Assembly (NCBI GenBank): GCA_025408425.1
Contig: JANXYX010000050.1
Span: forward strand, 1-64,000
DNA: 64,000 nt
Origin: Granulicella sp.
Lineage (GTDB): Bacteria; Acidobacteriota; Terriglobia; Terriglobales; Acidobacteriaceae
Direction of reading: 5' to 3'
Shown: positions 141-16,292 of the stretch, piece after piece
How positions within the stretch are numbered: the first letter of the stretch is position 1
Layout: each line of letters begins with the position of its first letter
Notes under the pieces: generated by a model
The model's database searches: none
What the model was told of the DNA's origin: nothing
What the model saw: the letters and a program-made list of their open reading frames with translations, nothing else
Position numbers and translations under genes: made by a program

Positions 141-418
141 AGGCAGCCTCCTCGCTTGACCCTGTGTGCCGCTTGCTCTGCCTGGTCCTGTTCTCTTCGG
201 CCTCCCTTGTCATGGTCCCCGTATTGGCCTGCATCTTCATCGCCCTGCTCCTCATCCTTATCTACGGGGAAGGCATCGCGCCCGCGCGCATCGCACGGGA
301 GGCTCTCTTCATCGTCGGCTTGGTCTCGTTCACCTTTGTATTGCAGGGCGTCTCAGTTCATCCCAGTCTGCGTCTCGACCCTGCTGGAATGCTGGATGCC
401 GGAGTGGACATAGGGTAG
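128..418 (+). pseudogene. Truncated EcfT-like energy-coupling transmembrane protein
   Basis: This 96-residue reading frame has two hydrophobic segments near residues 16-50 and 58-74, in the style of the N-terminus of EcfT/CbiQ membrane subunits. Those are usually about 230-270 residues long. The frame stops just before two direct repeats that resemble insertion-sequence ends (424-499). The missing C-terminal part, with the Ala-Arg-Gly coupling motifs, is not found downstream. The gene is therefore probably broken by the insertion of the island. The alternative is a short unrelated membrane protein, but its overlap with the ABC ATPase supports EcfT. Confidence 0.5.
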
Positions 419-423
419 CCTCG

Positions 424-499
424 TGTCAGATAAATGCGACAAATTTCTGACTACTTCAGTATAACGTCATGTCAGAAAAATGCAACAAATTTCTGACTA
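424..499. repeat. Two 30-bp direct repeats, insertion-sequence-end-like
   Basis: The sequence at 424-453 is repeated at 470-499 with two mismatches and a 46-bp period. Each copy begins TGTCAGA and ends TTCTGACTA, so GTCAGA and TCTGAC also form an inverted repeat inside each copy. Multiple terminal repeats of this kind occur at the ends of IS21-like elements. No transposase gene is present, so this may be a leftover end. It marks the junction between the broken EcfT gene and the island. Confidence 0.55.
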
Positions 500-654
500 T
501 GGTTCCTGGCGGCTTTCCGTGTTCGCAGGTCCCGGGGGACGGTCTCACGGTACAAACACTCGCTATTTCCATTGCCTGCACAAAAAGTGGATGGCATAAT
601 CGCTCATCCCTCATTTTCGTACACCTGAGAAGTTAGAAGGACAACCCGCCTTAC
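500..654. other. Left junction region of the island, promoter region of the three-gene operon
   Basis: No gene is seen between the direct repeats and the ATG at 655. The stretch is more AT-rich than the chromosomal genes to the right. The first gene has a usable ribosome site, AGAAGGACA, about 15 bases before its ATG. The promoter should lie here, but no clear -35/-10 pair can be named with confidence. Confidence 0.3.
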
Positions 655-1647
655 ATGAGCACTGATAAGCAGTCACGAGACGAGATTCGAGCGCGGATCA
701 AGCCCACATTAGACAAGGTTGCGGTAAAGGGATTAAGGGCGTGGCTTAAAGCCATAGGCCTATCAAGTTCTGCGTATACGCGACCAACAATCACCAATTT
801 GGTTGCGGATGAGATCGCTGAAAAGAGATTAGCGGAAGATGCACTGGAAAGAGCGCTGATCGGCTTTGAAGAGGCCAGCGACATGCGCATCTACCTTTAC
901 AAGCTAGATGAGTTGCCAAAAGCAGATACCAGGAAGTGGCTCCCAAATCGCCTCCTGAATGCAGGTTTCGCGCTAACAAAAATCCGCACATTCGCGGGCG
1001 AGAAGACGAAACCGATGTCGCCTGTATACGCCGAGTTGGAAGGTGAATTATTGCGTGTGAAGTGGGCCGAGGAGCACGAGAGCCTAAAGATTGACGACAA
1101 AACGGGGACTGTAGTCAAAGAGCCGGTGCCCAGACGAATAGTCTTGATAGCTGACCTTGCGGCCAAGACGGCAGAGTTGCGAATGAACCCTCCTGAGACT
1201 CGGCACGCCTACGAAGACGCAACAGGTAGAACACCTTCCGAACTTTACTATCAGGCATATCTCGATAAAGTTTCTGATCTATTGGAATGCACGCTTCTTC
1301 CAATCGAATGGCGGCCAGTCGTACGACAATTGGTTGAAGAAGAGGAGCCGCGCGTTGTTCGCATTCACATCGACAACCACACAAACCAGAGCAACACGAG
1401 AGCCAAAACCCACTCATCACGGGCCGATGTGCGAGACGACCCCGATTGGAAACTTGCGTATCAAAACAACGGTGAATCGTGGGCTTGGGATGCGCAATCG
1501 TTCTACTGGCTACCCAAAGTTTCCAACGGGTTTCTGACTCGCGAGCTTTACTCGCATATTGATGCCGAAACCGGGTACGTTAAAGTCAATGCGGATTGTA
1601 GCGACGAAGAGGTGAACTATGTTGTCTCGCAAATTCGAGCGCGCTAA
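655..1647 (+). CDS. Unknown protein, 330 aa, first gene of the island operon
   Basis: Family not recognised. It has no signal peptide or membrane segment, so it is probably cytosolic. Residues 20-55 (LRAWLKAIGLSSS... then TITNLVADEIAEK) look like a SAP-like helix-extended-helix, which would suggest DNA binding; this is inference. Residues 120-175 look beta-rich. Residues 195-232 are helical and acidic, ending in VEEEEP. A polar linker near 240-262 leads to an aromatic tail with SWAWDAQSFYWLP near 275-287. The stop lies 29 bases inside the next gene, so translation is likely coupled. GC content is visibly lower than in the flanking chromosome, and a recombinase lies nearby, which together point to horizontal transfer. 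Confidence 0.8.
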   Translation: MSTDKQSRDEIRARIKPTLDKVAVKGLRAWLKAIGLSSSAYTRPTITNLVADEIAEKRLAEDALERALIGFEEASDMRIYLYKLDELPKADTRKWLPNRLLNAGFALTKIRTFAGEKTKPMSPVYAELEGELLRVKWAEEHESLKIDDKTGTVVKEPVPRRIVLIADLAAKTAELRMNPPETRHAYEDATGRTPSELYYQAYLDKVSDLLECTLLPIEWRPVVRQLVEEEEPRVVRIHIDNHTNQSNTRAKTHSSRADVRDDPDWKLAYQNNGESWAWDAQSFYWLPKVSNGFLTRELYSHIDAETGYVKVNADCSDEEVNYVVSQIRAR

Positions 1648-2002
1648 ACGTGATAACCCAGGTCTGTCCGACCTCCTAGACCAGCTCATGCAATACCTTG
1701 AGCGTCAGAAGCAAAGCGGACAGACTTTCTTCCTGCCAAAGCTTGCTGCTGCGAAACTCCGCCTGAATGACGGAGAAGCATACGTGCTCTTGGAGGTTTT
1801 AGCGCGCGCCGGTGTGCTAACACGCGCGTTCAATGTTTATTGCAAGAAGAGCGGAGAACTTCTTGCAACGGTGTCTAGCGAGGACAAGCTAAACGACATT
1901 CCGCATTGTGATGAGTGCGATGAGGATCATGAGGGAGACGGACTCCGGTTGGAACTCGCGTTCCAATTCCCTTCGGTGAGAGATGTCGGGATGGCTGCAT
2001 GA
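1619..2002 (+). CDS. Small protein with predicted winged helix and degenerate zinc ribbon
   Basis: The protein has 127 residues. Residues 38-70 (FLPKLAAAKLRLNDGEAYVL...) read as a winged-helix-like helical unit. They are followed by a ribbon: Cys75-Lys-Lys-Ser-Gly, then Cys97-Asp-Glu-Cys100 flanked by His96 and His104. A normal ribbon has two CxxC pairs. Here the second Cys of the first pair is Ser78, so metal binding may use His or be lost. A strand LRLELAFQF closes the domain. It overlaps the first gene by 29 bases and the third by 4. The arrangement suggests an adaptor or sensor between the other two proteins, but no family is recognised for certain. Confidence 0.8.
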   Translation: MLSRKFERAKRDNPGLSDLLDQLMQYLERQKQSGQTFFLPKLAAAKLRLNDGEAYVLLEVLARAGVLTRAFNVYCKKSGELLATVSSEDKLNDIPHCDECDEDHEGDGLRLELAFQFPSVRDVGMAA

Positions 2003-2478
2003 AACAGACCGCTCTAACTAAGAAGCGGAAAGCCTCGCCCTCACCGGATTTGAGCACGCAGGCCCATGAGCAGATCATGGATTACCTGCGACTGGCCGAC
2101 AAATCAAAAAATCCCGCCCTCATAGAGGCCGCCGTCAAGTTGGCTAACGAAAGGCAAAAGCAGCAGAAGAAGTCGGAAGCGAAAATCTCTCCAACGGTCG
2201 CCACAATTCTAGCCACCACAGTTATTGGTCTGGCGGCGTGGGCCTGCTGGTATGCAATCGTTCATCATCCTGATCGCACCGGCTTTTCGTTAGTCGTGGT
2301 TATATCGTCGCTGGCCATCGTCCTGATATGCCTATATGCGCTATTCTCTGGGCATCTTTCCCAACTGAACTTCATGTCTATGGTTCGGTGGGCCGGAGAG
2401 CGAATCAGCCGCCTGAACCCATTTGATAAAAGCCCGCCGCCCGCCCTCCCAGATGATGGCGCGGACGCCGAACCGTAG
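1999..2478 (+). CDS. Two-helix membrane protein, third gene of the island operon
   Basis: The protein has 159 residues. A charged N-terminal cytosolic part (1-66, with LANERQKQQKKSEAK) precedes two membrane helices near residues 68-88 and 97-119. A short tail rich in Pro and Asp follows. The start ATGA overlaps the previous stop. No enzyme motif is seen. Small two-helix proteins at the end of compact operons often act as membrane-disrupting effectors in bacterial conflict systems. That role is only inferred here from layout and size. Confidence 0.8.
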   Translation: MKQTALTKKRKASPSPDLSTQAHEQIMDYLRLADKSKNPALIEAAVKLANERQKQQKKSEAKISPTVATILATTVIGLAAWACWYAIVHHPDRTGFSLVVVISSLAIVLICLYALFSGHLSQLNFMSMVRWAGERISRLNPFDKSPPPALPDDGADAEP

Positions 2479-2565
2479 ATCCTGGTTGGAGGCGTACCGG
2501 ATTCCCGGCATCAAGAGATTGGAGCTGCACGAAGTACAGCCGCCAGCGGCGGCACGTGCAAGGGA

Positions 2566-2714: not shown

Positions 2715-4142
2715 TCAGCGCGGCTTGTTACGCTGACCTCTTTTGGACTGATCGTGGCTCGCTGCCGCTTTCGACGCCTTGGCCTTGGTATCGTCCGGTT
2801 CCGGTTGCGGCAGTTCCCATCCCGCCATGCCCTGCAACACACGGTCGGCGTGCTTGATGGTGTTCACATGTCCATAGTGGCTTTCAATCATGAGGACGGA
2901 AGTTCCCATCTGCTCGGCGAGGAAGTACACGTCCACTCCTTCCTGCAATCGGAGCGTGGCGTAGGTATGCCGGAAACTATACGTCGAACGCGGAACTCCC
3001 TGCGTGCCTTCGCGCAGATTCGCCTCGTTCAGAAGATCCGCAATCAGCGAGCTGTAAAGAGTTTTTGCGGGCTTGCCTGTGACATTGGTAAATACCCTGT
3101 CGTCCGGTTCCATGGCTTTGGAGATTGTGCGGATGCGTTCTAAATAATCTCCGACGCTTTTGGGCGCGACCAGCTTGCGCGATTTGCCCTTGCCCTGCAC
3201 GAACAAGACAACGATCTCGCGGCCCTCGCGGTCTTTTGCAAGCATGATGTCGCGCCAACGGAGATTTTTCATCTCCGCCGGCCTCATGCCCGTGTTGCAG
3301 GCAATCAGAATCATGTTGTAGGTGACGGTACGATACCAAACGCTTGACGGCTTGTCGGCCTCGGCAATCCACTTGCGCCCGACCGTGTGGAGTTTGCGGT
3401 ACTCCTCCAGCGTGAACTCGTCACGCCTCATCGTCTTGAGCTTCGGGCGGTCGTCGAAACGCTGGCTTGCGGGGACATAGCGCTTCTTCACCGCATAGTT
3501 CATGATCGCCCCGAAAATCGACATCTCGAAGCGGATGGTGGAATCGCTGATGAAGGGAACCGCGTGAACATCCTGCGGCTTGATGGCAATCGGCTTCAAA
3601 ACCCTGATGCCCAGGGTCTGCTGAACCTTGGTGCGGCGTGCGGATTCGTGGTCTGCGAAAGACTGCGCTACGTCGGCCGTAACTTCCCGAACGCCATTGC
3701 GCTTGTGGCGTCCCGCGCCGTTCTCCCGCCGCCATGCCGGATAGCTGCCCCAGCGTTCGTCGCCGATAAGATGTACCTGTGTTGAACCTGCATACCTGTC
3801 TAAAGCGCCTTCGATGACGGCACGGAGTTTCTTGGGCCGCGCGGCGCTGATCTCTCCGCGTTTCGCCCGCGCCTCCTGCGTCAGGAGATACTCTTTCCCC
3901 ACCTCGCGAAAGGGATGGTTGAACACAGGGACGTCGTGCTTCAAGCGGAACCGGATGTCTGCATCATGGTCGAAGGCACGTTCCCGCGCCACATCGAGGT
4001 CGGTCGTCTTGAGCGAAACCGTCTTGTAACGGTCGGCTTTGGGGATCTTCATGCGGCAATACCACATCCGATGATCCACGTCGCCACGCCGGAAGAGAAC
4101 CAAGCCCGGCTTAAGTTCCGATTTGTCCGTGACGAATGCCAT
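2715..4142 (-). CDS. Tyrosine recombinase / phage-type integrase
   Basis: I chose the ATG at 4142 (protein begins MAFVTDKSEL, 475 residues); the frame is open further upstream, but that part has no integrase character. The N-terminal arm and core-binding parts fill residues 1-240. The catalytic domain shows Arg287 in NTGMRPAE, a Lys-rich turn GKGKSRK near 317-323, and SFRHTYATLR with Arg391. The nucleophile is Tyr423 in ESHYGH. The usual first His of the HxxR box is Tyr388 here. The C-terminus is basic. It should integrate or excise the island with the three unknown genes. No tRNA or clear att repeat was found next to it. Confidence 0.88.
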   Translation of the reverse strand: MAFVTDKSELKPGLVLFRRGDVDHRMWYCRMKIPKADRYKTVSLKTTDLDVARERAFDHDADIRFRLKHDVPVFNHPFREVGKEYLLTQEARAKRGEISAARPKKLRAVIEGALDRYAGSTQVHLIGDERWGSYPAWRRENGAGRHKRNGVREVTADVAQSFADHESARRTKVQQTLGIRVLKPIAIKPQDVHAVPFISDSTIRFEMSIFGAIMNYAVKKRYVPASQRFDDRPKLKTMRRDEFTLEEYRKLHTVGRKWIAEADKPSSVWYRTVTYNMILIACNTGMRPAEMKNLRWRDIMLAKDREGREIVVLFVQGKGKSRKLVAPKSVGDYLERIRTISKAMEPDDRVFTNVTGKPAKTLYSSLIADLLNEANLREGTQGVPRSTYSFRHTYATLRLQEGVDVYFLAEQMGTSVLMIESHYGHVNTIKHADRVLQGMAGWELPQPEPDDTKAKASKAAASHDQSKRGQRNKPR

Positions 4143-4958: not shown

Positions 4959-5102
4959 ATTGTCATCTTGAGCAAAACGGCTCACGTCTTTGTGAGCCGT
5001 GAAATCGAGGACCTGCATTTTGCCTTTGCCGTTGCCTTTGCCTTTGCCGTTGCCGTTGCCGTCGCCTTTGCCTTTGCCGTTGTCGTTGCCGTTGCTCTTG
5101 CT
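4959..5102 (+). repeat. Dispersed repeat, family 2 copy 2 with hairpin and 14-unit hexamer tail
   Basis: The block begins TTGTCATCTTGAGC. It contains a perfect stem ACGGCTCAC/GTGAGCCGT (4977-5000) and reaches GAGGACCTGC at 5006-5015. From 5019 to 5102 there are 14 consecutive six-base units, mostly TTTGCC or GTTGCC. Such a tract can change length by slippage. No protein is credibly encoded. Confidence 0.75.
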
Positions 5103-5178
5103 TCTAGGTACCCCAAGGCTTCAGCCTTGGGCCTCTCAGCCCACCGTCAGCAAGAAGGGCTTTAGCCCCTGGGATATG
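5103..5178. repeat. Cluster of short hairpins between recX repeat and peptidase gene
   Basis: CCCAAGGCT and AGCCTTGGG form a perfect stem at 5112-5131. GGGCCTCTCAGCCC and AGGGCTTTAGCCCCT follow. The 'GGCTTCAGCC' core recurs at 19452-19471 as a separate perfect hairpin, so this is probably another small dispersed palindrome. It may also end transcription of the peptidase gene, which stops at 5202 on the minus strand. Confidence 0.45.
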
Positions 5179-5201: not shown

Positions 5202-7481
5202 CTACTTCCCCGCATACCTCCCCGTCCTCGTCCAACGATCGCACCAATCCCCCACCGTCTCATACCAGAGCTTCGAGTTCTGCGGCTTCAAAACCCAATG
5301 CCCCTCATCCGGAAAATAAAGCATCTTGCTCGGAACCCCCAATCGCTGCAGCGCCGTAAACAACTGAAAGCTCTCGCTCACATCCAGCCGATAGTCCTTC
5401 TGCGAATGAATCACCAGCGTAGGCGTCTTCGCATCCTTGATATGCAACATCGGCGACCACTTCCGAAAAGGATCCGCCGCCGCCGGCAGATCCTGATACC
5501 GCCAGGGCTGCCCTGGCTCTTTATCCCACGCCGCTGCCCCCGTCGCAGGACCCCGCCGAAACTCCCACTCGTTGAACCACATCTCCTCCGTATCCCCATA
5601 CGCCGCCGCCGGGTTATACATCCCGTCATGCGTCACAATGCACTTGAACCGGTCCGTATGCGTCAAAATCCAGTCCGCCATAAACCCGCCATAGCTCGCC
5701 CCCAGCGCACACTCCCGAGTCTTATCGATAAACGGAAACTTTGCCTCCGCCGCATCCAGCCCCTTCATCAGATCGACATACGCCTTCCCACCCCAGTCCC
5801 CGCTCACCTCATCCACAAACTTCTGCCCATATCCCGTCGACCCACGCCGATTCACCCCTACCACCACATACCCGCTCGCCGCCATCAACTCCCAATTCCA
5901 CCGATAGCTCCACGAATCCCCCCATGCCGTCTGCGGCCCACCATGCATCAAAAACTTCACCGGATACTTCTTCCCCGGATCAAAGTTCGGCGGCCGCACC
6001 ACAAACCCCTGCACCTGGGTATCTTCGGCGCCTCCGAACCAGAAGGTATCCAATTTTGATAGATCGAGCTGAGCAACGAGTGCGTCGTTCATATGCGTCA
6101 GCGATCGAACATCCGTCTCACTGATAAAGATGTCACCTCCCTCAGCACCCGTACGTGTGTGGGTAATAATCACGATCTGGGCTGGACGGTTCACGAACAT
6201 CTGAGTCGCAATTACCGCCCCAGCCTTCGTGAATGCCAAACTCCCAAACTCACCCTCCACCGCAGTCCAAGCTCCAGGCGGCGTGAGGCTACCCCGGACC
6301 GGAAGAGCGTTAATCTGAACGACCTCTCTACCTCGATCTGGACTAGCAATCGCAATACTTTTCGAATCGGGAGCCCATGCGAATTCGTCAACCCAGTTGT
6401 CTTTTACAGGCTCGTACTTACTGTTCGTCATTCTTGGCAGAACATGATCAATTCGCCCACTCGCACGATCCATCACCACCAAATCAAACTTGTCCGACTC
6501 ATACCCAGCCCGAGCCTGCGACCGAAACGCCAACCACTTCCCATCCGGCGAATAAGCCGGCCCATCATCACTCCCCAACGAGGTAGAAACCTTCACCGCC
6601 TTAGCCCCGGCCTCATCCAGCCGCAGCGTAAACACATCATTATTCGTACTCGCCGCAGGCACCGCGTCGAGGTTAGCCACGTAAGCAATCTCCTTCGAAT
6701 CCGGAGCCCAAGCATACCCAATCGGCCCACTCACAAAGTACGTAGGCGTCTCCGCATCCCCCACCACACTCCGCGGAGTCAAATCCCGCACTTGCAAACC
6801 ATCGCTAGCCGACATCACCAACACATGACTCCGCTTCTCCCCCATGTAATGGTCCCAGTGCCGATACAGCAGATGCTCAAACACCTGCGCCTTCACCGGA
6901 CTCTTAGCCGCCGCCTCATCCTTAGCCTTATCGCAAGCATCCTCCTCCGCCCACGCAGCCTTATCGGAGCACTCCGGATAAACACTCGACACAAACAGCA
7001 ACCACTGCGAATCCGGCGACCAAACCGCCCCATCCGCACCCGTACTCACCGCCGTCAGCACCTTCCCTACCCCCACCTTCCCCGCACCTTCATCCCAAGC
7101 CGCCACCACAATCTGATCCCCGGCCGTCCACGAAACCCACTTCCCATCCGGCGAAAACCGTCCATTCGACTCCCCATTCCCGAAGGTCAGTTGGCGTTCA
7201 CCCTCCGCCTTTCCCCCGCCACCGTCAGGATTCGCCGTACGCGAAGTACCCCAAAGATGATTCACCTTCGAATTCTTCTCCAACGACACCTCCGTCACCG
7301 AGAACATCACCCACTTCCCACTCGCCGAAATCTGCGGATCGCTTACCCGCTTCATCGCCATCAAATCCTCAAACGTCATCGGCCGCTTACCCGCAGCCCC
7401 GGCAGCACCCTGCGCCAGGCCCGCCCCGCACCCCAAAACCAAAACCAAAACCGCCGCCAGCAAACCCACAAGATTCTTCAT
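5202..7481 (-). CDS. Secreted S9-family prolyl oligopeptidase-like peptidase
   Basis: The 759-residue protein starts with a signal peptide (MKNLVGLLAAVLVLVLGCGAG), so it is exported; a lipoprotein processed at the Cys near residue 18 is possible. A beta-propeller with repeated WSPDSQW/YSPDGKW motifs fills about 40-470. The C-terminal alpha/beta-hydrolase carries the triad Ser596 (GASYGGFMA), Asp696 (SQKDYRLD) and His728 (DEGHWV). Family members cleave short peptides, often at or near proline or as acyl-aminoacyl peptidases. The gene stands alone. Substrate choice cannot be read from the sequence. Confidence 0.92.
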   Translation of the reverse strand: MKNLVGLLAAVLVLVLGCGAGLAQGAAGAAGKRPMTFEDLMAMKRVSDPQISASGKWVMFSVTEVSLEKNSKVNHLWGTSRTANPDGGGGKAEGERQLTFGNGESNGRFSPDGKWVSWTAGDQIVVAAWDEGAGKVGVGKVLTAVSTGADGAVWSPDSQWLLFVSSVYPECSDKAAWAEEDACDKAKDEAAAKSPVKAQVFEHLLYRHWDHYMGEKRSHVLVMSASDGLQVRDLTPRSVVGDAETPTYFVSGPIGYAWAPDSKEIAYVANLDAVPAASTNNDVFTLRLDEAGAKAVKVSTSLGSDDGPAYSPDGKWLAFRSQARAGYESDKFDLVVMDRASGRIDHVLPRMTNSKYEPVKDNWVDEFAWAPDSKSIAIASPDRGREVVQINALPVRGSLTPPGAWTAVEGEFGSLAFTKAGAVIATQMFVNRPAQIVIITHTRTGAEGGDIFISETDVRSLTHMNDALVAQLDLSKLDTFWFGGAEDTQVQGFVVRPPNFDPGKKYPVKFLMHGGPQTAWGDSWSYRWNWELMAASGYVVVGVNRRGSTGYGQKFVDEVSGDWGGKAYVDLMKGLDAAEAKFPFIDKTRECALGASYGGFMADWILTHTDRFKCIVTHDGMYNPAAAYGDTEEMWFNEWEFRRGPATGAAAWDKEPGQPWRYQDLPAAADPFRKWSPMLHIKDAKTPTLVIHSQKDYRLDVSESFQLFTALQRLGVPSKMLYFPDEGHWVLKPQNSKLWYETVGDWCDRWTRTGRYAGK

Positions 7482-7698: not shown

Positions 7699-9087
7699 TC
7701 AAGCCACCTCCCGCACCACACTCTCCTCCACCACCACCCCAGCCACCGGCAACTCCACCACCACCGCCGCTCCCCGCGGATGCAGGTTGAACGCACTAAT
7801 CTCCCCGCCATGCTCCTTCACAATCCCATAGCAAATACTCAACCCCAGCCCCGCACCCTGCCCCAACTCCCGCGTCGTATAGAACGGATCGAACACCCGC
7901 GCCGGCTCCACAAACCCCGCCCCCGTATCACTCACAATCACCTGCAACCCCCGCTCATCATGCGTCACCGAAACCCGTATCGCATGCTCTTCCCCACCAG
8001 CCGCCCCCACCGCCTGCGCCGCATTATTCAGCAGATGCTCCATCACCGTCCGCAGCCGATCTCGGCTCCCCCGCACCGCCGGAACATCCTCCCCCACCTG
8101 CACCATCAGCCGTACCCCCCGCCCCGCCAACGTCTCCTCACACGCCGACACCAGCTCAGATACCAGTGCCCCCATCATCACCGGCTCCTCAATCAAAGTC
8201 GCCGGACGCCAGAAGTCCAGCAGGCTCTGCACCGTCTCCCGCATCCGCAGTGCCTCCCGCACAATCGTCTCGGCATCCTTCTGCACCCGGGCCTCTTCCG
8301 TCGTCTCCGCAATCAACTCCGCAAAACCCAGCACCGCCGTCAGAGGATTGTTCAGCGCATGCGCCACTCCTCCCGCGAGTTGTCCCAGGCTCGCCAGCTT
8401 CTCCTGCCGCAACAACCGGTCCGCCAGCGCCGCATTCTCCATCGTCCGCGCCAGCTTCACCGCCAGCGCCTCCAGCGGCCCCATCTCCCCTCCACCACGC
8501 TTGCCGCGATCATCCGCACACACCACCAACGCCCCCACCAGCCGCCCCCCCATCGTCCATAGCGGAGCCACCATCGCCACCGGCCTCTCGCTCTCCCCCA
8601 GAAACTCCCCTAGCCTATCCACCTCCTCCAACCTCATCGCAAAGCTCTTCGTCCCCACCGCCACCCCAGCCTGCCCCGCTAGCGGTTCACTCTCGCCTCG
8701 CAGAGCCACTACCCGCCCACCCCAACCATTCAGCGCCGCCACCGCCCTGTCATCGACACCCACGCTCCCAGCCACAAAAAGTCTTCCATCGGCATCCCGT
8801 GCCAACATCGCCACCTTCCGAAACGCACTCGTGTCCGCCACCACCCGGCACACTCTCTTCCCCAACACCCGCACATCGCCATCCGCCGGCAGCTGGGCAT
8901 CCAGGCGTGCATACGCCTCCAACTCCTCTCGAGTCTGCCGGTTCCGTCGCCGCATCCCCGCGTTCAGCCGCATCTGACGCCCCAGCATCCCCAGAGAACC
9001 CGCCAGACAAACCGCGCCCACAGCCTCCGCCGAGTGCCGCATCAACAGCCCAAAAACCAACATCATCAGCTCTCGAAACTCACTCAT
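7699..9087 (-). CDS. Orphan sensor histidine kinase with GAF-like domain
   Basis: I chose the ATG at 9087 because GGAGA lies seven bases before it; TTG and GTG codons sit just upstream in frame. The 462-residue protein has an N-terminal hydrophobic segment (about 5-35). A GAF-like sensor region follows (about 60-210). The H-box is GGVAHALNNPLTAVLG with the phospho-accepting His. The ATPase domain has N-box LLNNAAQAVG, DTGAGF and GLGLSICYG. The cytosolic kinase would phosphorylate a response regulator, but none is encoded nearby. The NNPL form of the H-box is typical of NtrB-like kinases. Confidence 0.9.
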   Translation of the reverse strand: MSEFRELMMLVFGLLMRHSAEAVGAVCLAGSLGMLGRQMRLNAGMRRRNRQTREELEAYARLDAQLPADGDVRVLGKRVCRVVADTSAFRKVAMLARDADGRLFVAGSVGVDDRAVAALNGWGGRVVALRGESEPLAGQAGVAVGTKSFAMRLEEVDRLGEFLGESERPVAMVAPLWTMGGRLVGALVVCADDRGKRGGGEMGPLEALAVKLARTMENAALADRLLRQEKLASLGQLAGGVAHALNNPLTAVLGFAELIAETTEEARVQKDAETIVREALRMRETVQSLLDFWRPATLIEEPVMMGALVSELVSACEETLAGRGVRLMVQVGEDVPAVRGSRDRLRTVMEHLLNNAAQAVGAAGGEEHAIRVSVTHDERGLQVIVSDTGAGFVEPARVFDPFYTTRELGQGAGLGLSICYGIVKEHGGEISAFNLHPRGAAVVVELPVAGVVVEESVVREVA

Positions 9088-10116: not shown

Positions 10117-10140
10117 GTGGCCGCCTGCTCAGGCGGCCAC
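10117..10140. terminator. Strong GC-rich hairpin between convergent genes
   Basis: GTGGCCGCCT and AGGCGGCCAC pair perfectly around a four-base loop GCTC. It lies 13 bases after the secreted-protein gene and before the convergent HNH gene, so it may serve both. A T-run is lacking. Confidence 0.6.
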
Positions 10141-10211
10141 TCTATCAATCTCAACCAGCCATTCATAAACGCCTGCCGGTCAAACGGTCACGTCCCCATC
10201 AACCTGTTTCG

Positions 10212-10889
10212 TCAGGCCGCCGTCACTACCGCCGTCTCTACCTCCGACTCAAAGTACAGATACTTCCGCCATGCCGCATCCGCGCTCCCAATCATCCGCA
10301 TAATATGCCGCGAAGTGTGCAGGCTGAACGGCCTCGGCTCCCGCAGCAGCTTCATGTCCGTCAACTCATGCAGCATCTGGTTCCCTTTCCGCCGATTGCA
10401 GTTATGGCAGCACGCCACCAGGTTCTCCCACGTCGACAGCCCGCCTCGCGACCGCGGAATCACGTGGTCCAGCGTCAACTCCCCCGCCGTCAGCACAATG
10501 TTGCAGTACTGGCAGGCATTCCGGTCCCGCAGCAGAATATTCTTCCGGCTCAGCGCCCGCGTCTGGTGCGGAATCCGCCGATACTCCAGCAGCCGAATCA
10601 CGCTCGGCATCGCCACCCGCATCCGTGCCGCATGCAGCATCGCGCCCTGCTCTTCTTCCGTCCGAGCCACCCCCTTCAGCACCAGCACCAGCGCCCGCCG
10701 GGCACCACAGATATTGATCGGCTCATAGCTCGCATTCAGCACCAGCACCGGAGTCTGCATCGCCGGCTGACGAAACACCCCTGCCCGCGCATCCACCTCC
10801 GTCGCCTTGCCCGCTGCCCCATGCTGCGAGCCATATCCCGCGTGCCGATTGCCACTAAGTCTCTGCTTCCGCATCTTCCCCGTTTGCAT
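10212..10889 (-). CDS. HNH endonuclease family protein
   Basis: The ATG at 10889 is preferred because GGAGGG lies seven bases upstream (225 residues). The core shows RDRNACQYC near the middle, then [13 protein letters not shown] and [16 protein letters not shown]. This is the classic HNH layout with two CxxC zinc pairs. The N-terminal part [20 protein letters not shown] is typical of the chromosomal 'HNH endonuclease' found widely in Acidobacteria and cyanobacteria. It may cut DNA; the biological target is unknown. It is not in an obvious defence cluster. Confidence 0.87.
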
Positions 10890-10943
10890 CTCAAAGCCCT
10901 CCGGTTCCAATCTCTGTTAGCGATTACTTCCAATCTCTAGCGC

Positions 10944-11891
10944 CTAAGCCTCACCCCAGCGCGCCACCATCTCCGTCTGCGCCCTGGCCAGCGTCGCAAC
11001 CCAAACCTTCCGCGCTCCCGCTCGCCGCAGCACCCGCGCACACTCCCGGGCCGTCGCGCCCGTCGTATAAATGTCATCCAGCAACAGCACCTCGCGCCCC
11101 ACAATCCCCGCGCCATCCCGCACCGCAAACGCCCCCTGCAAATTCCGCCGTCTGCCCTTCGGCGTCAGCGAGAACTGGCTCTCCGTATCCCGCACTCGCC
11201 GCAACACCCCATGCGCCGCCCGCAACTCCCACCCCAGCCTGCTCTTCTTCAACGCCGCCACCGCCACATCCGCCAGCAGAACCGCCTGGTTATAGCCACG
11301 CTGCCGCTCCTTCGCCGGATACAGAGGCACTGCCACAACCATCAACTCACGCGCCGCAGGCCCCTCCAACATCTCCATCGCCGCCGCCAGCTTAAGCCCC
11401 AGCGGCCTCGCCACCGCTCGCATCCCCTCATACTTCAGCAGATGCACCATCTCCCGCAGCTCGTTCTCATACACCCCATACGCCACCGCCCGCTCAAACT
11501 CCGGCGGCACCATCCGGCAGGGCGAACACAACAAGCCCTCAATAGGAAACTGTCCCGCATAGCGCAGGCCTTCCATATCCAGCGCCTCACCGCAGCGCCC
11601 ACACAATGTCATCGTTTGAAGAGAGATCCGCGCCACGCATGCATCGCAGACGGCAGCAAGTCCAGCCCGTGTCAGTGGCCCACCACACGCACGGCAATCA
11701 GCAGGAAAAAACGTTGTTACCAGATCATCCGCAATCGTACGAGCCCACCGACTCGAACTTTGCAGTACACGTGCCACCGCACGCCACTCCGAAACCCCGC
11801 TGGAGTTCAACCCAGGTGGTCCACCGGGTGGAGACCCAGTGTTACTTCCGAGCGCATTGTCATTCAAGCATTCGCTGAAGACGCACCTCAC
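10944..11891 (-). CDS. comF: ComF-family phosphoribosyltransferase-like protein
   Basis: The conserved part begins near residue 50 with FFPADCRACGGPL, a zinc finger completed by LCGRCG and LLCSPC. The phosphoribosyltransferase domain contains GYNQAVLLA and the PRPP loop LLLDDIYTTGAT. ComF is needed for DNA uptake in competent bacteria and contributes to replication-fork handling elsewhere. The open frame begins at a GTG at 11891, but the first 35 or so residues (SPPGGPPG...) look non-coding. A GTG near 11780 with GGAG upstream is a better start. It follows the HNH gene by 54 bases on the same strand. Confidence 0.85.
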   Translation of the reverse strand: MRCVFSECLNDNALGSNTGSPPGGPPGLNSSGVSEWRAVARVLQSSSRWARTIADDLVTTFFPADCRACGGPLTRAGLAAVCDACVARISLQTMTLCGRCGEALDMEGLRYAGQFPIEGLLCSPCRMVPPEFERAVAYGVYENELREMVHLLKYEGMRAVARPLGLKLAAAMEMLEGPAARELMVVAVPLYPAKERQRGYNQAVLLADVAVAALKKSRLGWELRAAHGVLRRVRDTESQFSLTPKGRRRNLQGAFAVRDGAGIVGREVLLLDDIYTTGATARECARVLRRAGARKVWVATLARAQTEMVARWGEA

Positions 11892-12046
11892 TCGCCAGCG
11901 CTCCAGGCCATTCAGACCGCGCTATGCCCGAAGTATAAGCCCACCCCCGCCCCAAACGCCAATCAATTTCCCGCAACAACCCACCACATCGCCCCATTCC
12001 CCACAGAATCTGCGCGATAGCACCAACCCCTCTGCCGGGCCTTGTA

Positions 12047-12241
12047 CTACAAGCAACCAGCTCGAATCCGTACCGGAGACAATTCACCAACCGCCTCACC
12101 CGACCTGAGCATCTCGATACGCTCCCGAATCTCATCGCATACCGACACAACATTCATCCCTCCAAAGTACGGCGGAGACTGCTCCAGTCGACGCAGCGCA
12201 GCCTGCAACAATCTCTCAGCCCCCAGCAGATTGTTTCGCTG
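12047..12241 (-). pseudogene. C-terminal remnant of a DUF309 protein
   Basis: Reading on the minus strand, the last 64 codons contain NLLGAERLLQAALRRLEQSP then PPYFGG and VCDEIRERIEML. This matches the helical C-terminal half of DUF309 proteins (usually 130-170 residues). The 5' half is replaced at about 12240 by the 111-bp repeat, where the frame turns into repeat sequence. No 5' half is seen beyond the second repeat copy. The gene is therefore broken, probably when the repeat-flanked cassette arrived. Confidence 0.65.
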
Positions 12242-12350
12242 GCGGGTGGCCCACACATCAAACCCACCAACACCGCCGGGTGCCCCATTCATGCAGTCTC
12301 ATCGCATGAGTGGGCATTCGCGAAGCGAACCGCTTTCACCAACGCCCACC
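12240..12350 (+). repeat. 111-bp direct repeat, left copy, containing double-hairpin repeat copy A
   Basis: Bases 12240-12350 are identical to 14036-14146. Inside lies the dispersed double hairpin (12278-12331): CCCATTCATGC/GCATGAGTGGG, then a small TTCGCGAAGCGAA palindrome. The two long copies flank the RHS toxin cassette, so recombination between them could delete or exchange it. From 12351 to 12438 no intact gene is seen; a short open frame ending at 12442 may be a gene scrap. Confidence 0.9.
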
Positions 12351-12438
12351 CACCCACATCCCACCCGCTCGAGGACGATGTGAACCCGACCGGGCTACCG
12401 CAGGTGATGGAAGAGATCGTCAACCGAGCCGTGCAACG

Positions 12439-13529
12439 GTGAGCTGGAATGCGGTGGCGCAGCCGATCGTTGTGAATGGCGTCTCCGCTACCTACGATGC
12501 ACTGGGCCGGATGGTGGAAGCTGGATCGGGTACGACGTATGTGCAGGTGGTGTTTAGACCTTCGGGTGATAAATTGGCAATTGTGCAGAATGGAGTGTTG
12601 TCGAAAGGAACGGTTCCGTTGCCCGGCGGTGCCTCGGCGATCTATAACGCCAGCGGCCTAAGCTACATCCGGCACAAGGACTGGCTGGGGAGTTCTCGTT
12701 TAGCCACAACCTGGAACCATGCAGTCTATGCCAAGGAAGCCTACGCACCATTTGGCGAGACCTACAACGAAGCCGGCACTGCCGACCGCTCCTTCACCGG
12801 GCAGGATCAGGACACGACGCAGGGAATCTACGACTTCTTATGTAGGCGGTACGATCAATCAGCGGGAAGGTGGATGTCGCCCGATCCCTCGGGGTGGAGT
12901 GCCGTCAAGCTGACATCTCCCCAGTCGCTGAATCGGTACGCCTATGCACTGAACAATCCGCTGGGATTGACTGATCCTACGGGGCTGTACACACGTGGCG
13001 ATAGTTGCAATGGAACTGTCTACTCAGCAGTTTGTGAATGGATCTTAGTTATTGAGATCGGCAATATTCCAACTGACGGAAGCAATTTGGGGCTAGTTTC
13101 CTATGTTGGTGGTGATGGCGGTGGGACTGCCCCAATTAACCTCACCAGACTTATTGCTAACGCTCAGAACAATCTGCCTAAAGCCTGCGATCAAGCATTT
13201 GCGAGTAGCATCTCTAAGTACACAAATGCAAATTTCTTTAATCAACTCCTGATCAATCCCATTGTTCAAATACCGAACCCTACTTCCCTGAGAGATCCAA
13301 GTACGGCAATGATGCCGTAACTTCTCCGGGTACTGGGCAGATAACACTGCGCTCGAACTTTTTCAATCTTCCACCCTTCTATCAGCAGATGACACTAGTA
13401 CACGAGGGAATCCACAGCTATACCGGATGGACGGATGCTCAAGTCATGTCAAATCTGAATATTCCTAACGACGGGAATGGAACTTCAGCTATAACGGATT
13501 GGATTGCGGGAGGATGCAAGAGCCGATGA
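12439..13529 (+). pseudogene. Orphan RHS-repeat tip with frameshifted HExxH C-terminal domain
   Basis: Only the end of an RHS/YD-repeat protein is present. It shows YDALGRMVEAGSG, KDWLGSSRLATT, YAPFGETYNEAG, RRYDQSAGRWMSPDP and NRYAYALNNPLGLTDPTGLY, the hallmark of the RHS core just before a variable toxin tip. The first frame stops at 13318-13320. From about 13299 the -1 frame continues with LVHEGIHSYTGW (HExxH, a zinc metallopeptidase motif) to the TGA at 13527. One frameshift near 13290-13305 explains this. The 5' bulk of the gene is absent. It is either a silent toxin cassette or a sequencing error at the shift. Confidence 0.75.
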
Positions 13530-13972
13530 AGATTAGAGATTTTTTACTTGTTGCCATTAGTGTTGTACTATCCTCAATCGCATGTATGGTTTGCATTAAA
13601 TTCTTTGGTTATTCGGAGTCTAAGCCGCTTCGTGTTCCAAAGGTCGAGATTGTCGACAAGTCGGGAGCCGTCCGCTTAATTATCGGGATACAGGATTCAG
13701 TAAATGGTACAGATCAACCAGAGCTTGTTATGAAGGATAAGGGCGGTAGAGAGGTGATGGGCCTTCTTCTGACGCCTTCCGGTAAGGGTAAAATGGTCTT
13801 CAGTACTGATAACACCGAGGCAAAGGTAGCATTGGGATTTTTGTCTGGCAGCGATGTAGCCGGGCAAACTGAAGAGGGCGGCTCCTGGGGTATGCGGATT
13901 CGTGGTGAGAACGGCGAGACCAGGACAGTTGGAGATCCTATTACGGATGACCACAGTAGTCGCCCCAAGTAA
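13526..13972 (+). CDS. Candidate immunity protein for the RHS toxin
   Basis: The ATG at 13526 overlaps the TGA of the shifted toxin frame (ATGA), which fits toxin-immunity coupling; an earlier in-frame codon at 13499 is less likely. The 148-residue protein has one N-terminal membrane helix (about 4-26, FLLVAISVVLSSIACMVCI). A beta-rich part with KVEIVDKSGAVRLIIG and a Gly-rich tail follows. It would be anchored with its domain outside the cytoplasm, where a metallopeptidase toxin could act. Codon use is AT-richer than in neighbours. No immunity family is recognised; the role is inferred from position. Confidence 0.6.
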   Translation: MKIRDFLLVAISVVLSSIACMVCIKFFGYSESKPLRVPKVEIVDKSGAVRLIIGIQDSVNGTDQPELVMKDKGGREVMGLLLTPSGKGKMVFSTDNTEAKVALGFLSGSDVAGQTEEGGSWGMRIRGENGETRTVGDPITDDHSSRPK

Positions 13973-14035
13973 CGTGAACCGCAATTCCAAGCTTCCGAAT
14001 GGTCAAACTGTTGGCGATGTAGTTCGACAACAACG

Positions 14036-14146
14036 TGGCGGGTGGCCCACACATCAAACCCACCAACACCGCCGGGTGCCCCATTCATGCAGTCTCATCG
14101 CATGAGTGGGCATTCGCGAAGCGAACCGCTTTCACCAACGCCCACC
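14036..14146 (+). repeat. 111-bp direct repeat, right copy, containing double-hairpin repeat copy B
   Basis: This copy is identical over 111 bases to 12240-12350. The double-hairpin core is at 14074-14127. It begins 63 bases after the immunity gene stop and ends ten bases before the 3' end of the convergent glycosyltransferase gene. Confidence 0.9.
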
Positions 14147-14156
14147 ACCCACACCC

Positions 14157-16157
14157 TTACCCACCGCCCATCTTCTTTTTCACTCTCGCCCCCCACTTGT
14201 CTCTCCCACCACTCTCCATCGTCTCTACCACCGCCATCGCCTTCAGATAGTGCGTCTTCGCCTCGTCCTTCCGTCCCGCCGCACTCAGCGCATCTCCCAT
14301 CCCAATCTCCTCCCGCAGCCCGCCAGGATTCAACTGCTCTGCAATCTGCGCCTCCTTCAACGCCTCCGCAACCTTGCCCGCCTTCAGCAGCGCCGCAGCC
14401 TCCTGCGTATGACTCAACGCCGCAGCTTGCGGAATCGCAAACTCCCCGTCAAACACAAAGATCCCATCCTGAATAAATGCCGTCGGCTTCACTGACCGAA
14501 ATCCCTCCAGAGGATTCAGCGCACTCGCCCCAAATTCAAACCCGTTCAAATCTCCCGCGCTGATAAACACCGGCCCATGAATCACCGGAGGCACCGGTAT
14601 CGGCTCCCGCGAGAACCACGAGTCCGGAGTCGGCAGCCGCTTGCACGGAATCCCATAGTCCGACGGCAGCACAAACGGTGCCACAAAATAAGCAATCCAG
14701 CACTCCTTGATCCCACGCTGGTCCACATACGCCTTTGTCGCCTTCAACTGCTGGCCCCAGTCCGTATTCGAGTCCGTCAGATACCGGTACGTCTTCGTCG
14801 GCCCGCCCCAAACCTCGTTTGAGTAAGCCATATAGTTTGGGTACGCCAGCAGCGAAGACCCCGCATGCAGCACCACCAGCCCACCCACAACCCAGCTCCA
14901 CCGCCTGTCCCGGCGCACCAGGGCCATCGCCCCGCCTGCCGCCAGCAACGCAAAAAACACATACAGCGGCAGAATATGCCGCGCACCAATATTCAAACTC
15001 GAACCCATCGCAATCAGCAGATAGAAGATCGGCGGTATCGTCAGGAACAAAACCTCGCGCCGGCGCCCCAGCCACCCCTTGGCGGTCGCCCAGATCGAAA
15101 ACGCCAGCAGCCCTAAAAATCCCAGCGTCGACTTGATCGCGAACACCGCCGGAAAATAAAACCACACCCCATGCGAATACACCTTGCCGAAGATATAGCT
15201 CGGCATCTCATTCGCCATCGCCCGCACATCCGCCAGACCATACAAAAACGACTCAGGAAGAATATGCCACCGTCCCAGTAACAATATCCCCTTGGCCTCC
15301 AGCGGCCGCAACGGCATCACATACTCCGCCAGCGTCGGATCAAGCCGCAACCCAGCCGGCCGCGCCGCATACCGGAACCCATAGAACCCCCACAGCACCA
15401 CCACCGCAATCACCACCACCACCCCAATCGCACCTGTCAGTTGCTGTGCCATCCGACCTCGGCTTCTCCCCTCTTCCCTCCCCACAAACCAAACCTCGCT
15501 CGCCGCCAGCAACACCAGCATCGGCAGCAACAATACCGCCGAGTGCTTCGACGCCAGCGCCAACCCCGACATCACACCCACCAGCACAAGCCGTCCCGCC
15601 GATGGCACCTTCACATACCGGTAGAACGCATACACCGCCCCAAACAGCATGCACGACACCGCCATATCCGTCGTCACATAGGCCCCATGCGCCAGCAGAC
15701 TCGGCTCAAACACAAACAGCGTCATCGCCAGCAGCCCTGCGCCTGTACTAAACATCTCTTGCCCTGCCAAAAACACCAGCATCGCCAACAGCAATGTCAG
15801 CAGCCCCGGCAGTAGCCGCACACGAAAGGTCAGCGTGTCCGCGCTATACTCCGGCGCATTCCCAAACAGCAGCTCTCTCCCATCCAGATACGCTTCGGTC
15901 TTGAAGAAGCGTCCCTGCAACGGCGGGACCTTCAGATGCAGCGGCAGCAGCGGAATCGTACCCAGCATCTTCACCAGCGGCGGATGTTCCGGGTTCAATC
16001 CGTAGTCCCCCGTCTTCCAGCTCTGATACCCAGCAAAGATATGGTCGCCCTCATCCCACGTCAGCGACTGCCCCCGAATCGTCGACACGACCTCAACGCT
16101 CAGCACCACCAGCAGCAGCAACACCAACCCCGCGACATATCCTCGCTTCATCCCCAT
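14157..16157 (-). CDS. GT39-like membrane glycosyltransferase with C-terminal TPR
   Basis: The 666-residue protein starts with a membrane helix. The periplasmic loop LTWDEGDHIFAGY carries the Asp-Glu pair, and NPEHPPLVKML is typical of dolichyl-phosphate-mannose-type (GT39/PMT/ArnT) enzymes. About ten more membrane helices follow to residue 470. A soluble part then ends in TPR-like helices (AAALLKAGKVAEALKEAQIA... then GDALSAAGRKDEAKTHYLKA). Such enzymes move sugars from polyprenyl-phosphate donors onto proteins or lipids at the outer face of the membrane. It starts opposite the OPT gene. ATGs at 16157 and 16151 are both possible. Confidence 0.85.
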   Translation of the reverse strand: MGMKRGYVAGLVLLLLVVLSVEVVSTIRGQSLTWDEGDHIFAGYQSWKTGDYGLNPEHPPLVKMLGTIPLLPLHLKVPPLQGRFFKTEAYLDGRELLFGNAPEYSADTLTFRVRLLPGLLTLLLAMLVFLAGQEMFSTGAGLLAMTLFVFEPSLLAHGAYVTTDMAVSCMLFGAVYAFYRYVKVPSAGRLVLVGVMSGLALASKHSAVLLLPMLVLLAASEVWFVGREEGRSRGRMAQQLTGAIGVVVVIAVVVLWGFYGFRYAARPAGLRLDPTLAEYVMPLRPLEAKGILLLGRWHILPESFLYGLADVRAMANEMPSYIFGKVYSHGVWFYFPAVFAIKSTLGFLGLLAFSIWATAKGWLGRRREVLFLTIPPIFYLLIAMGSSLNIGARHILPLYVFFALLAAGGAMALVRRDRRWSWVVGGLVVLHAGSSLLAYPNYMAYSNEVWGGPTKTYRYLTDSNTDWGQQLKATKAYVDQRGIKECWIAYFVAPFVLPSDYGIPCKRLPTPDSWFSREPIPVPPVIHGPVFISAGDLNGFEFGASALNPLEGFRSVKPTAFIQDGIFVFDGEFAIPQAAALSHTQEAAALLKAGKVAEALKEAQIAEQLNPGGLREEIGMGDALSAAGRKDEAKTHYLKAMAVVETMESGGRDKWGARVKKKMGGG

Positions 16158-16292
16158 CGGTACGTCACCTCAACCAGTCGTTTAATTCACCCCGCGAGAA
16201 TACCGCAACAACCCTATCCCCCGTCGCACCCCACTGATACACTCCCATCCAGTCGCACCATCGCATACAAAAGCGGGAGCAACCCCATCTAC

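Follow-up and report, generated by a model that had tools for sequence, protein, structure and literature searches.

What is the function of a compact operon whose three proteins match no named sequence family? The question is raised by genes A, B and C at positions 655 to 2478 of a 64,000-nucleotide stretch of Granulicella sp. DNA (assembly GCA_025408425.1, contig JANXYX010000050.1; hereafter the window), whose position 1 is the first base of its contig. An earlier, sequence-only reading had seen in them the recognition, adaptor and membrane-effector layout that is common in anti-phage systems. Gene structure, selection, co-conservation, exchange of the third gene, predicted folds and genomic neighbourhoods support this layout, and we consider defence the likely broad function of the locus. 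More specifically, and with somewhat less assurance, we favour a modular, RexAB-like abortive-infection cassette, in which A and B would act as DNA-binding sensor and adaptor and C as membrane effector.

A transferable cassette of three overlapping genes

The open reading frames (ORFs) lie at 655-1647, 1619-2002 and 1999-2478; as first described, neighbouring frames share 29 and 4 bases. Gene starts are backed by homologues (alignments A1 and A2). The cassette has the following parts:

655..1647, forward strand: gene A, 330 residues; helical, weakly SAP-like N-terminus (residues 1-76), then a predicted RdgC/CENP-L/CENP-N-like fold (residues 77-330); predicted DNA-binding sensor
1619..1647, forward strand: overlap of A and B, 29 bases, 29/29 identical in a second genome (L003)
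1619..2002, forward strand: gene B, 127 residues; winged helix and probable zinc site (C75, C97, C100, H104); predicted adaptor
1999..2478, forward strand: gene C, 159 residues; basic N-terminus, two transmembrane (TM)-like segments and a short tail; predicted membrane effector
564..2491, forward strand: transferable cassette; the 91.2% match with DNA of Granulicella mallensis X5P3 (L003) starts and stops here

X5P3 (L003, also G236; Acidobacteriaceae) carries the closest named relative of the cassette, with identities of 322/330 residues for A, 120/127 for B and 123/159 for C. Ratios of nonsynonymous to synonymous substitution rates (dN/dS) are 0.062, 0.106 and 0.219, respectively. Purifying selection acts on all three genes, A being the most constrained and C the fastest-evolving in this single pair. 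The location of the cassette differs between the two genomes, and the ends of the match at 564 and 2491 define a mobile unit made up of the operon, 91 bases upstream and 13 bases downstream. As had also been noted at the outset, the guanine-plus-cytosine (GC) content of the operon is lower than that of the chromosome (0.524 as compared to 0.588 for 4.5-64 kb), and only 2.6% of 190 overlapping segments of the same size are equally low. Elsewhere in the window, at 13001-14000, GC falls locally to 0.467 with a changed GC skew.

Distribution and co-conservation

Gene A is rare and patchy in the sampled genomes. It was found in 6/299 genomes of the family, 4/399 of the class and 3/396 of the phylum, while a divergent profile of A detected 10/398 family genomes and the third type of A was found in 3/396 phylum genomes; these samples overlap, and the window's own genome is part of them, though no hit in the third-type sample. 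Altogether, 14 bacterial loci and six viral contigs were compared, falling into four subtypes. Subtype 1 comprises the window, G236, G284, G110 (= L005), G983 (= L004) and Edaphobacter aggregans (L006); subtype 2, G095, G486, G288 and G977; subtype 3, G1005, G130 and G944 together with G271, which matched the type-3 query; and subtype 4, the viral contigs L053-L057 and L062.

As expected if the three genes form one unit, their homologues co-occur. A, B and C are intact in ten of the 14 bacterial loci (window, G236, G284, G486, G1005, G095, G110, G977, G130 and G944) and present at least in part in 12, including G983, where the frame of B is interrupted, and G288, where C is cut by the contig end. 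The other two loci have a broken A, split over two ORFs in G271 and truncated in E. aggregans, with B and C seen in neither. In the viral contigs, A, B and a third gene are intact in 6/6. Where counted, the A/B and B/C junctions range from an overlap of 41 to a gap of 3 bases.

Profile comparisons connect the subtypes. G1005 was first picked up weakly (E 4.4e-6 over 95 positions) and was confirmed by matching the type-2 A profile to L045 A (probability 95.5, E 1.6e-8, 283 columns). A joint A profile of types 1 and 2, with window A as first sequence, matched types 3 and 4 combined at E 7e-10 over 286 columns, and types 3 and 4 matched each other at E 9.4e-38; against type 4 alone the joint profile gave a weak match (E 2.5e-4, probability 43). 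For B, types 1 and 2 matched types 3 and 4 combined at E 9e-8 over 112 columns, type 4 alone at only E 1.1e-3 and type 3 alone not at all, so that the homology of B is based on the joint profile together with position and length.

The relatives in viral contigs came from scans with the type-3 alignment, which yielded five loci, and from a second scan that added one more, giving six distinct contigs; scans of viral contigs with alignments A1 and A3 revealed no relative. Among 50,697 phage and 72,556 plasmid records, neither window A nor L051 A had a match, and L054 A and the L056 hydrolase-like protein described below had none in the same phage records.

Exchange of the third gene

The A-B pair is kept while the third gene changes between subtypes. 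In types 1 and 2 the third gene encodes a small membrane protein, related between the two types at E 3.6e-5. Window C has hydrophobic segments at residues 66-84 (bases 2194-2250) and 98-116 (bases 2290-2346) by hydropathy, in agreement with the two-helix membrane protein initially proposed, and two segments were counted in 6/8 proteins scored; those of L005 and L043 showed one by script, L043 looking like two by eye. Matches of C to SduA_C and other families were weak and were judged to be chance. The type-3 third protein has three hydrophobic segments in L045, to which the L050 and L051 proteins align, and profile comparison detected no relation to types 1 and 2. All nine C proteins scored from types 1-3 contain at least one TM-like segment. 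As a separate observation, the L051 third gene (7946-8485; G944, third type) matches phrog_5814, a family of unknown function, at E 1.1e-11; the membrane part of the G944 third gene thus occurs in other phages.

In all six viral contigs, the gene after A and B overlaps its predecessor by 14 bases and encodes a protein of 292-300 residues. An HGI motif and a nucleophile elbow, AHSFG, mark this protein as a probable alpha/beta-hydrolase, on the strength of these motifs and not of a profile match. For the L054 protein, a sequence search of PDB at E 0.1 gave no match. In three of five proteins scored, the best hydrophobic segment lies at the C-terminus with a score > 2; L055 has a weaker one there, in L057 another segment scores best, and the sixth protein was judged by reading. 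With third genes differing beside A-B in types 1-2, 3 and 4, the pair appears as the constant part of the cassette and the third gene as the exchanged one.

One could instead regard the locus as a toxin-antitoxin (TA) module kept for its own sake, with C or the hydrolase as toxin, B as an autoregulating DNA-binding antitoxin, A as an accessory regulator, and any effect on phages secondary. Its small overlapping genes, the winged-helix protein adjoining a small membrane protein, and TA genes or remnants by the cassette in the window and in G977 would suit such a module. However, A exceeds the other two proteins in size and, in the single pair compared, shows the strongest constraint (dN/dS 0.062); all 12 bacterial and six viral loci with an unbroken A have B and a third gene at least in part; window A and L051 A are without a match in the plasmid records; and a DNA-clamp-like protein is, to our knowledge, no usual TA component. 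We therefore regard a TA module as unlikely.

Predicted folds of A and B

Searches of Pfam, NCBIfam, PADLOC and PHROGs gave no convincing match for any of the three proteins, and no PADLOC 2.0.0 model matches window A, B or C. A housekeeping, metabolic or known-family identity, which would have spoken against the anti-phage layout, was therefore rejected, as no family fits. In a set of 5.8 billion proteins, 142 relatives of A score E <= 0.01, 120 of them listed; they partly overlap the 48 A proteins found with a divergent alignment. The SAP-like stretch claimed for A is weakly supported: Pfam SAP (E 0.031) and Ish1 (E 0.015) each match 1/46 members of alignment A1, both times the same protein, P0115, and P0217, outside A1, matches Ish1 at E 0.08. 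Matches of A to a prion chain and an adaptor protein were weak and were set aside as chance, as was IntS9_C, matched by 7/46 A1 members (best E 6.1e-4).

At the level of structure, the best fold matches of the predicted A are RdgC and the kinetochore proteins CENP-L and CENP-N, whose fold class is also that of lambda RexA. The assertion that none of the proteins can be assigned to a nameable family thus holds for sequence families and has to be relaxed for A, which can tentatively be placed by fold with RdgC and CENP-L/CENP-N, and hence with RexA. RexA itself (8twq) is not among the structure matches listed for A, which we do not take as a sign of difference. Profile comparison of A with RexA and RdgC gave nothing, and the positive control, RexA against RdgC, failed as well. 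An argument against DNA binding from the acidic isoelectric point of A (5.84) was dropped because RdgC (5.27) and CarolAnn gp44 (5.63) are also acidic.

B, for which 58 relatives were found in the 5.8-billion-protein set, proved to be a winged-helix protein, as anticipated for the adaptor. C75, C97, C100 and H104 are invariant across the 52 sequences of alignment A2; the zinc cysteines occur in types 1 and 2, whereas types 3 and 4 lack them. A weak beta-lactamase match for B was attributed to chance.

The fold of A also brings to mind a DNA-maintenance or segregation module, in which A would clamp DNA like RdgC or CENP-N/L, B would give specificity and C would be a membrane tether. That A resembles RdgC and kinetochore proteins is what such a module would lead one to expect, and a membrane protein is indeed part of the operon. 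Its patchy occurrence (6/299 and 10/398 family genomes), the changed location between two genomes and the lack of a match in the plasmid records argue against this, as do a third gene that can be hydrolase-like and relatives in viral contigs, two of which adjoin a portal gene. Hence, we consider DNA maintenance very unlikely.

Comparison with RexAB and proposed mechanism

For comparison, we considered RexAB of lambda, CarolAnn gp44/gp43, Sbash gp30/gp31 and Pseudomonas putida PP_5643-5644. The cassette resembles these systems in its overlapping genes (found in CarolAnn, too), carriage by prophages, a co-encoded membrane-protein partner (9/9 C proteins scored) and membrane damage as the proposed output. 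It differs in that no sequence similarity was found, in the weakly SAP-like N-terminus added to A, in the extra winged-helix gene B and in its many copies in Acidobacteriota chromosomes. The RexA family PF15969 matched neither window A nor the 46 A1 members nor the divergent A proteins scanned (types 1-3), whereas the control, lambda RexA, scored 1.4e-96. A partner with four TM segments, as in RexB, was not found among the third proteins scored of types 1-3, which have one to three hydrophobic segments, and type 4 is hydrolase-like. Because neither the RexA family nor the four-TM partner was recovered, filing the cassette as a member of RexAB is not justified.

A likewise has no sequence link to its structural neighbours. 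The RdgC family PF04381 has no match in window A or the 46 A1 members, RdgC itself was found in 0/21 genomes searched, the window's own included, and Escherichia coli RdgC is without B and C partners. No CENP-N/L family is among the Pfam matches listed for A, and CENP-N/CENP-L (Chl4/Iml3) act in eukaryotic chromosome segregation. The CENP-N structure alignment covers A from residue 10 on, where the weak Pfam matches are SAP and Ish1; the first domain of CENP-N is described in PMC5777823 as a pyrin domain, whereas that of A looks SAP-like. Among titles and the starts of abstracts, with most subscription journals outside the coverage, we recognised no published account of this cassette.

How could a RexAB-like cassette of this kind work? 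According to PMC12894663, the DNA-binding RexA of P. putida triggers the membrane protein RexB, resulting in membrane damage and a stop of growth, and for the CarolAnn pair PMC6426606 proposes activation by a phage protein. By analogy, cytosolic A, in which a SAP-like N-terminus precedes an RdgC/RexA/CENP-N-like fold, would probably dimerise, hold or clamp DNA and sense DNA-protein intermediates of phage replication or recombination. The winged-helix protein B would bind A or DNA and relay the signal through putative contacts among A, B and C. Once triggered, C would permeabilise or depolarise the inner membrane in which it is predicted to reside, and growth would stop before phage maturation. 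In relatives, the place of C is taken by a membrane protein with three segments or by what is probably an alpha/beta-hydrolase; since the exchanged effectors are of membrane type or often carry a C-terminal hydrophobic segment, membrane damage is likely to be the common output.

Genomic neighbourhoods

Outside the cassette, the following features were recognised in the window:

2715..4142, reverse strand: tyrosine recombinase (integrase, E 3e-13); neighbour outside the cassette match
383..513, reverse strand: promoter and antitoxin-start remnant of AbiE (type IV TA), start codon 411-409; resembles the AbiEi/AbiEii locus on contig C31; outside the cassette
416-453 and 462-499, no strand assigned: two direct repeats in the AbiE remnant, each palindrome-like by eye; possible old operator

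The operon had been thought to lie on a recombinase island. The tyrosine recombinase does lie downstream, on the opposite strand; however, it is an unrelated neighbour, and its being a component of the unit is ruled out because the DNA match to X5P3 (564-2491) stops at the operon ends. Integrase matches, this one included, number 17 in the window's genome, 16 of them above the cut-off. A tblastn search, for which five recombinases served as queries, found a recombinase or a fragment within ~250 bases in 4/14 bacterial loci.

The AbiE remnant has a counterpart in the same genome, where the AbiEi/AbiEii pair adjoins a tyrosine-recombinase-like gene (L002, G000:C31); the two remaining repeats could still be bound by the C31 AbiE antitoxin. 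A short ORF at 128-418 runs into the remnant, and no second copy of it was found in the genome; it resembles the start of what is presumably a CbiQ-like component of an energy-coupling factor transporter. Farther away, at 5010-5113, a GCCTTTGCCGTT-type unit is repeated ahead of a gene at 5202-7481.

Six bacterial loci out of 14, namely the window, G095, G944, G1005, G977 and G271, have a gene for defence or TA, or the remnant of one, beside them. In G095, a TerY-P triad (vWA, PP2C, kinase) starts ~130-200 bases past C (TerY 2.7e-102, PP2C 9.6e-37, kinase part 2.4e-67); TerY occurs once in this genome and in none of five other carrier genomes searched. TerY-P-like modules with an OB-fold are stand-alone anti-phage systems, as stated in PMC11090510, whereas the G095 kinase has an Ada-like zinc domain at its end, and the triad neighbours this one locus of the 14. 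In G944, one flank carries a helicase together with RecE-like and RecT-like phage genes, and the other a NACHT protein that matches Mrr below threshold. In G1005, a serine resolvase adjoins the cassette, as does a STAND-like protein (below the Pfam cut-off); G977 has a BrnA antitoxin beside it, and part of HsdR and a YgjP-like peptidase are near that of G271. Flanks are ambiguous in G284, with a serine resolvase, PIN and an HNH match below threshold, and in G110, with a fragment of a serine recombinase and a phosphorylase-domain protein. In G236, G486, G288, G983, G130 and E. aggregans no defence or TA gene was recognised, the flanks having been inspected for the most part at ORF level and not by profile search; two G983 flank genes had no Pfam match, and the G288 and G130 cassettes are situated near contig ends. 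Because it is a plain count without a matched control rather than a measured enrichment, the neighbourhood is only suggestive.

Three of these flanks merit description in their own right. The STAND-like NTPase upstream of the type-3 cassette in L045 (5204-8158) has 984 residues and TPR-like repeats below cut-offs. The NACHT protein by the L051 cassette is flanked by two similarly laid-out pentapeptide-rich ORFs (10139-17268; the first was tested against Pfam), and together they may form a separate defence system. About 2-3 kb from the G110 cassette, L016 (12586-15826) encodes a 597-residue phosphorylase-superfamily protein, the C-terminal half of which falls outside any assigned domain, and a 424-residue partner without Pfam match.

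Among the viral contigs, a portal gene adjoins the cassette in 2/6, L053 and L054 (on the portal side only). The L053 portal is 95% identical to those of Pseudomonas phages, one annotated gpQ, and the L054 portal was called by its likeness to that of L053. The region between gpA and gpQ is, according to PMC9122126, the anti-phage hotspot of P2 and the site of old and tin. In L057, a baseplate-like gene borders the cassette.

Such settings would also be compatible with a module that controls lysogeny of a mobile element or prophage instead of defence, similar to the second role of RexA, which also affects the lambda switch according to PMC11077077. Relatives in viral contigs and next to phage genes, as well as recombinases or fragments within ~250 bases in 4/14 bacterial loci, agree with this idea. 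The window recombinase, however, lies outside the cassette match, and among the 14 bacterial loci the tested phage genes were found at G944 only, repressor genes not having been searched for. Lysogeny control is, in our estimation, highly improbable.

Implications

According to a 2026 paper (PMC12894663), only five RexAB-like systems have been described so far. If the RexAB-like abortive-infection reading is true, the cassette would represent a new group of such systems, located in chromosomes as well as prophages, that has a third component and whose effectors can be exchanged. It would separate sensing, by A-B, from killing, by C or the hydrolase, and thereby make testable what Rex-type proteins sense. 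Bacteria would also be seen to have, beside immunity genes, a CENP-N-like fold in which the domain order is similar. As a speculation that we ourselves think quite unlikely, the DNA-clamping core of CENP-N/CENP-L might descend from A-type immunity proteins of bacteria and phages; the cassette would then be the surviving prokaryotic form, in which a helical N-terminal domain and a RexA/RdgC-like clamp signal via a winged-helix adaptor to interchangeable membrane-attack effectors.
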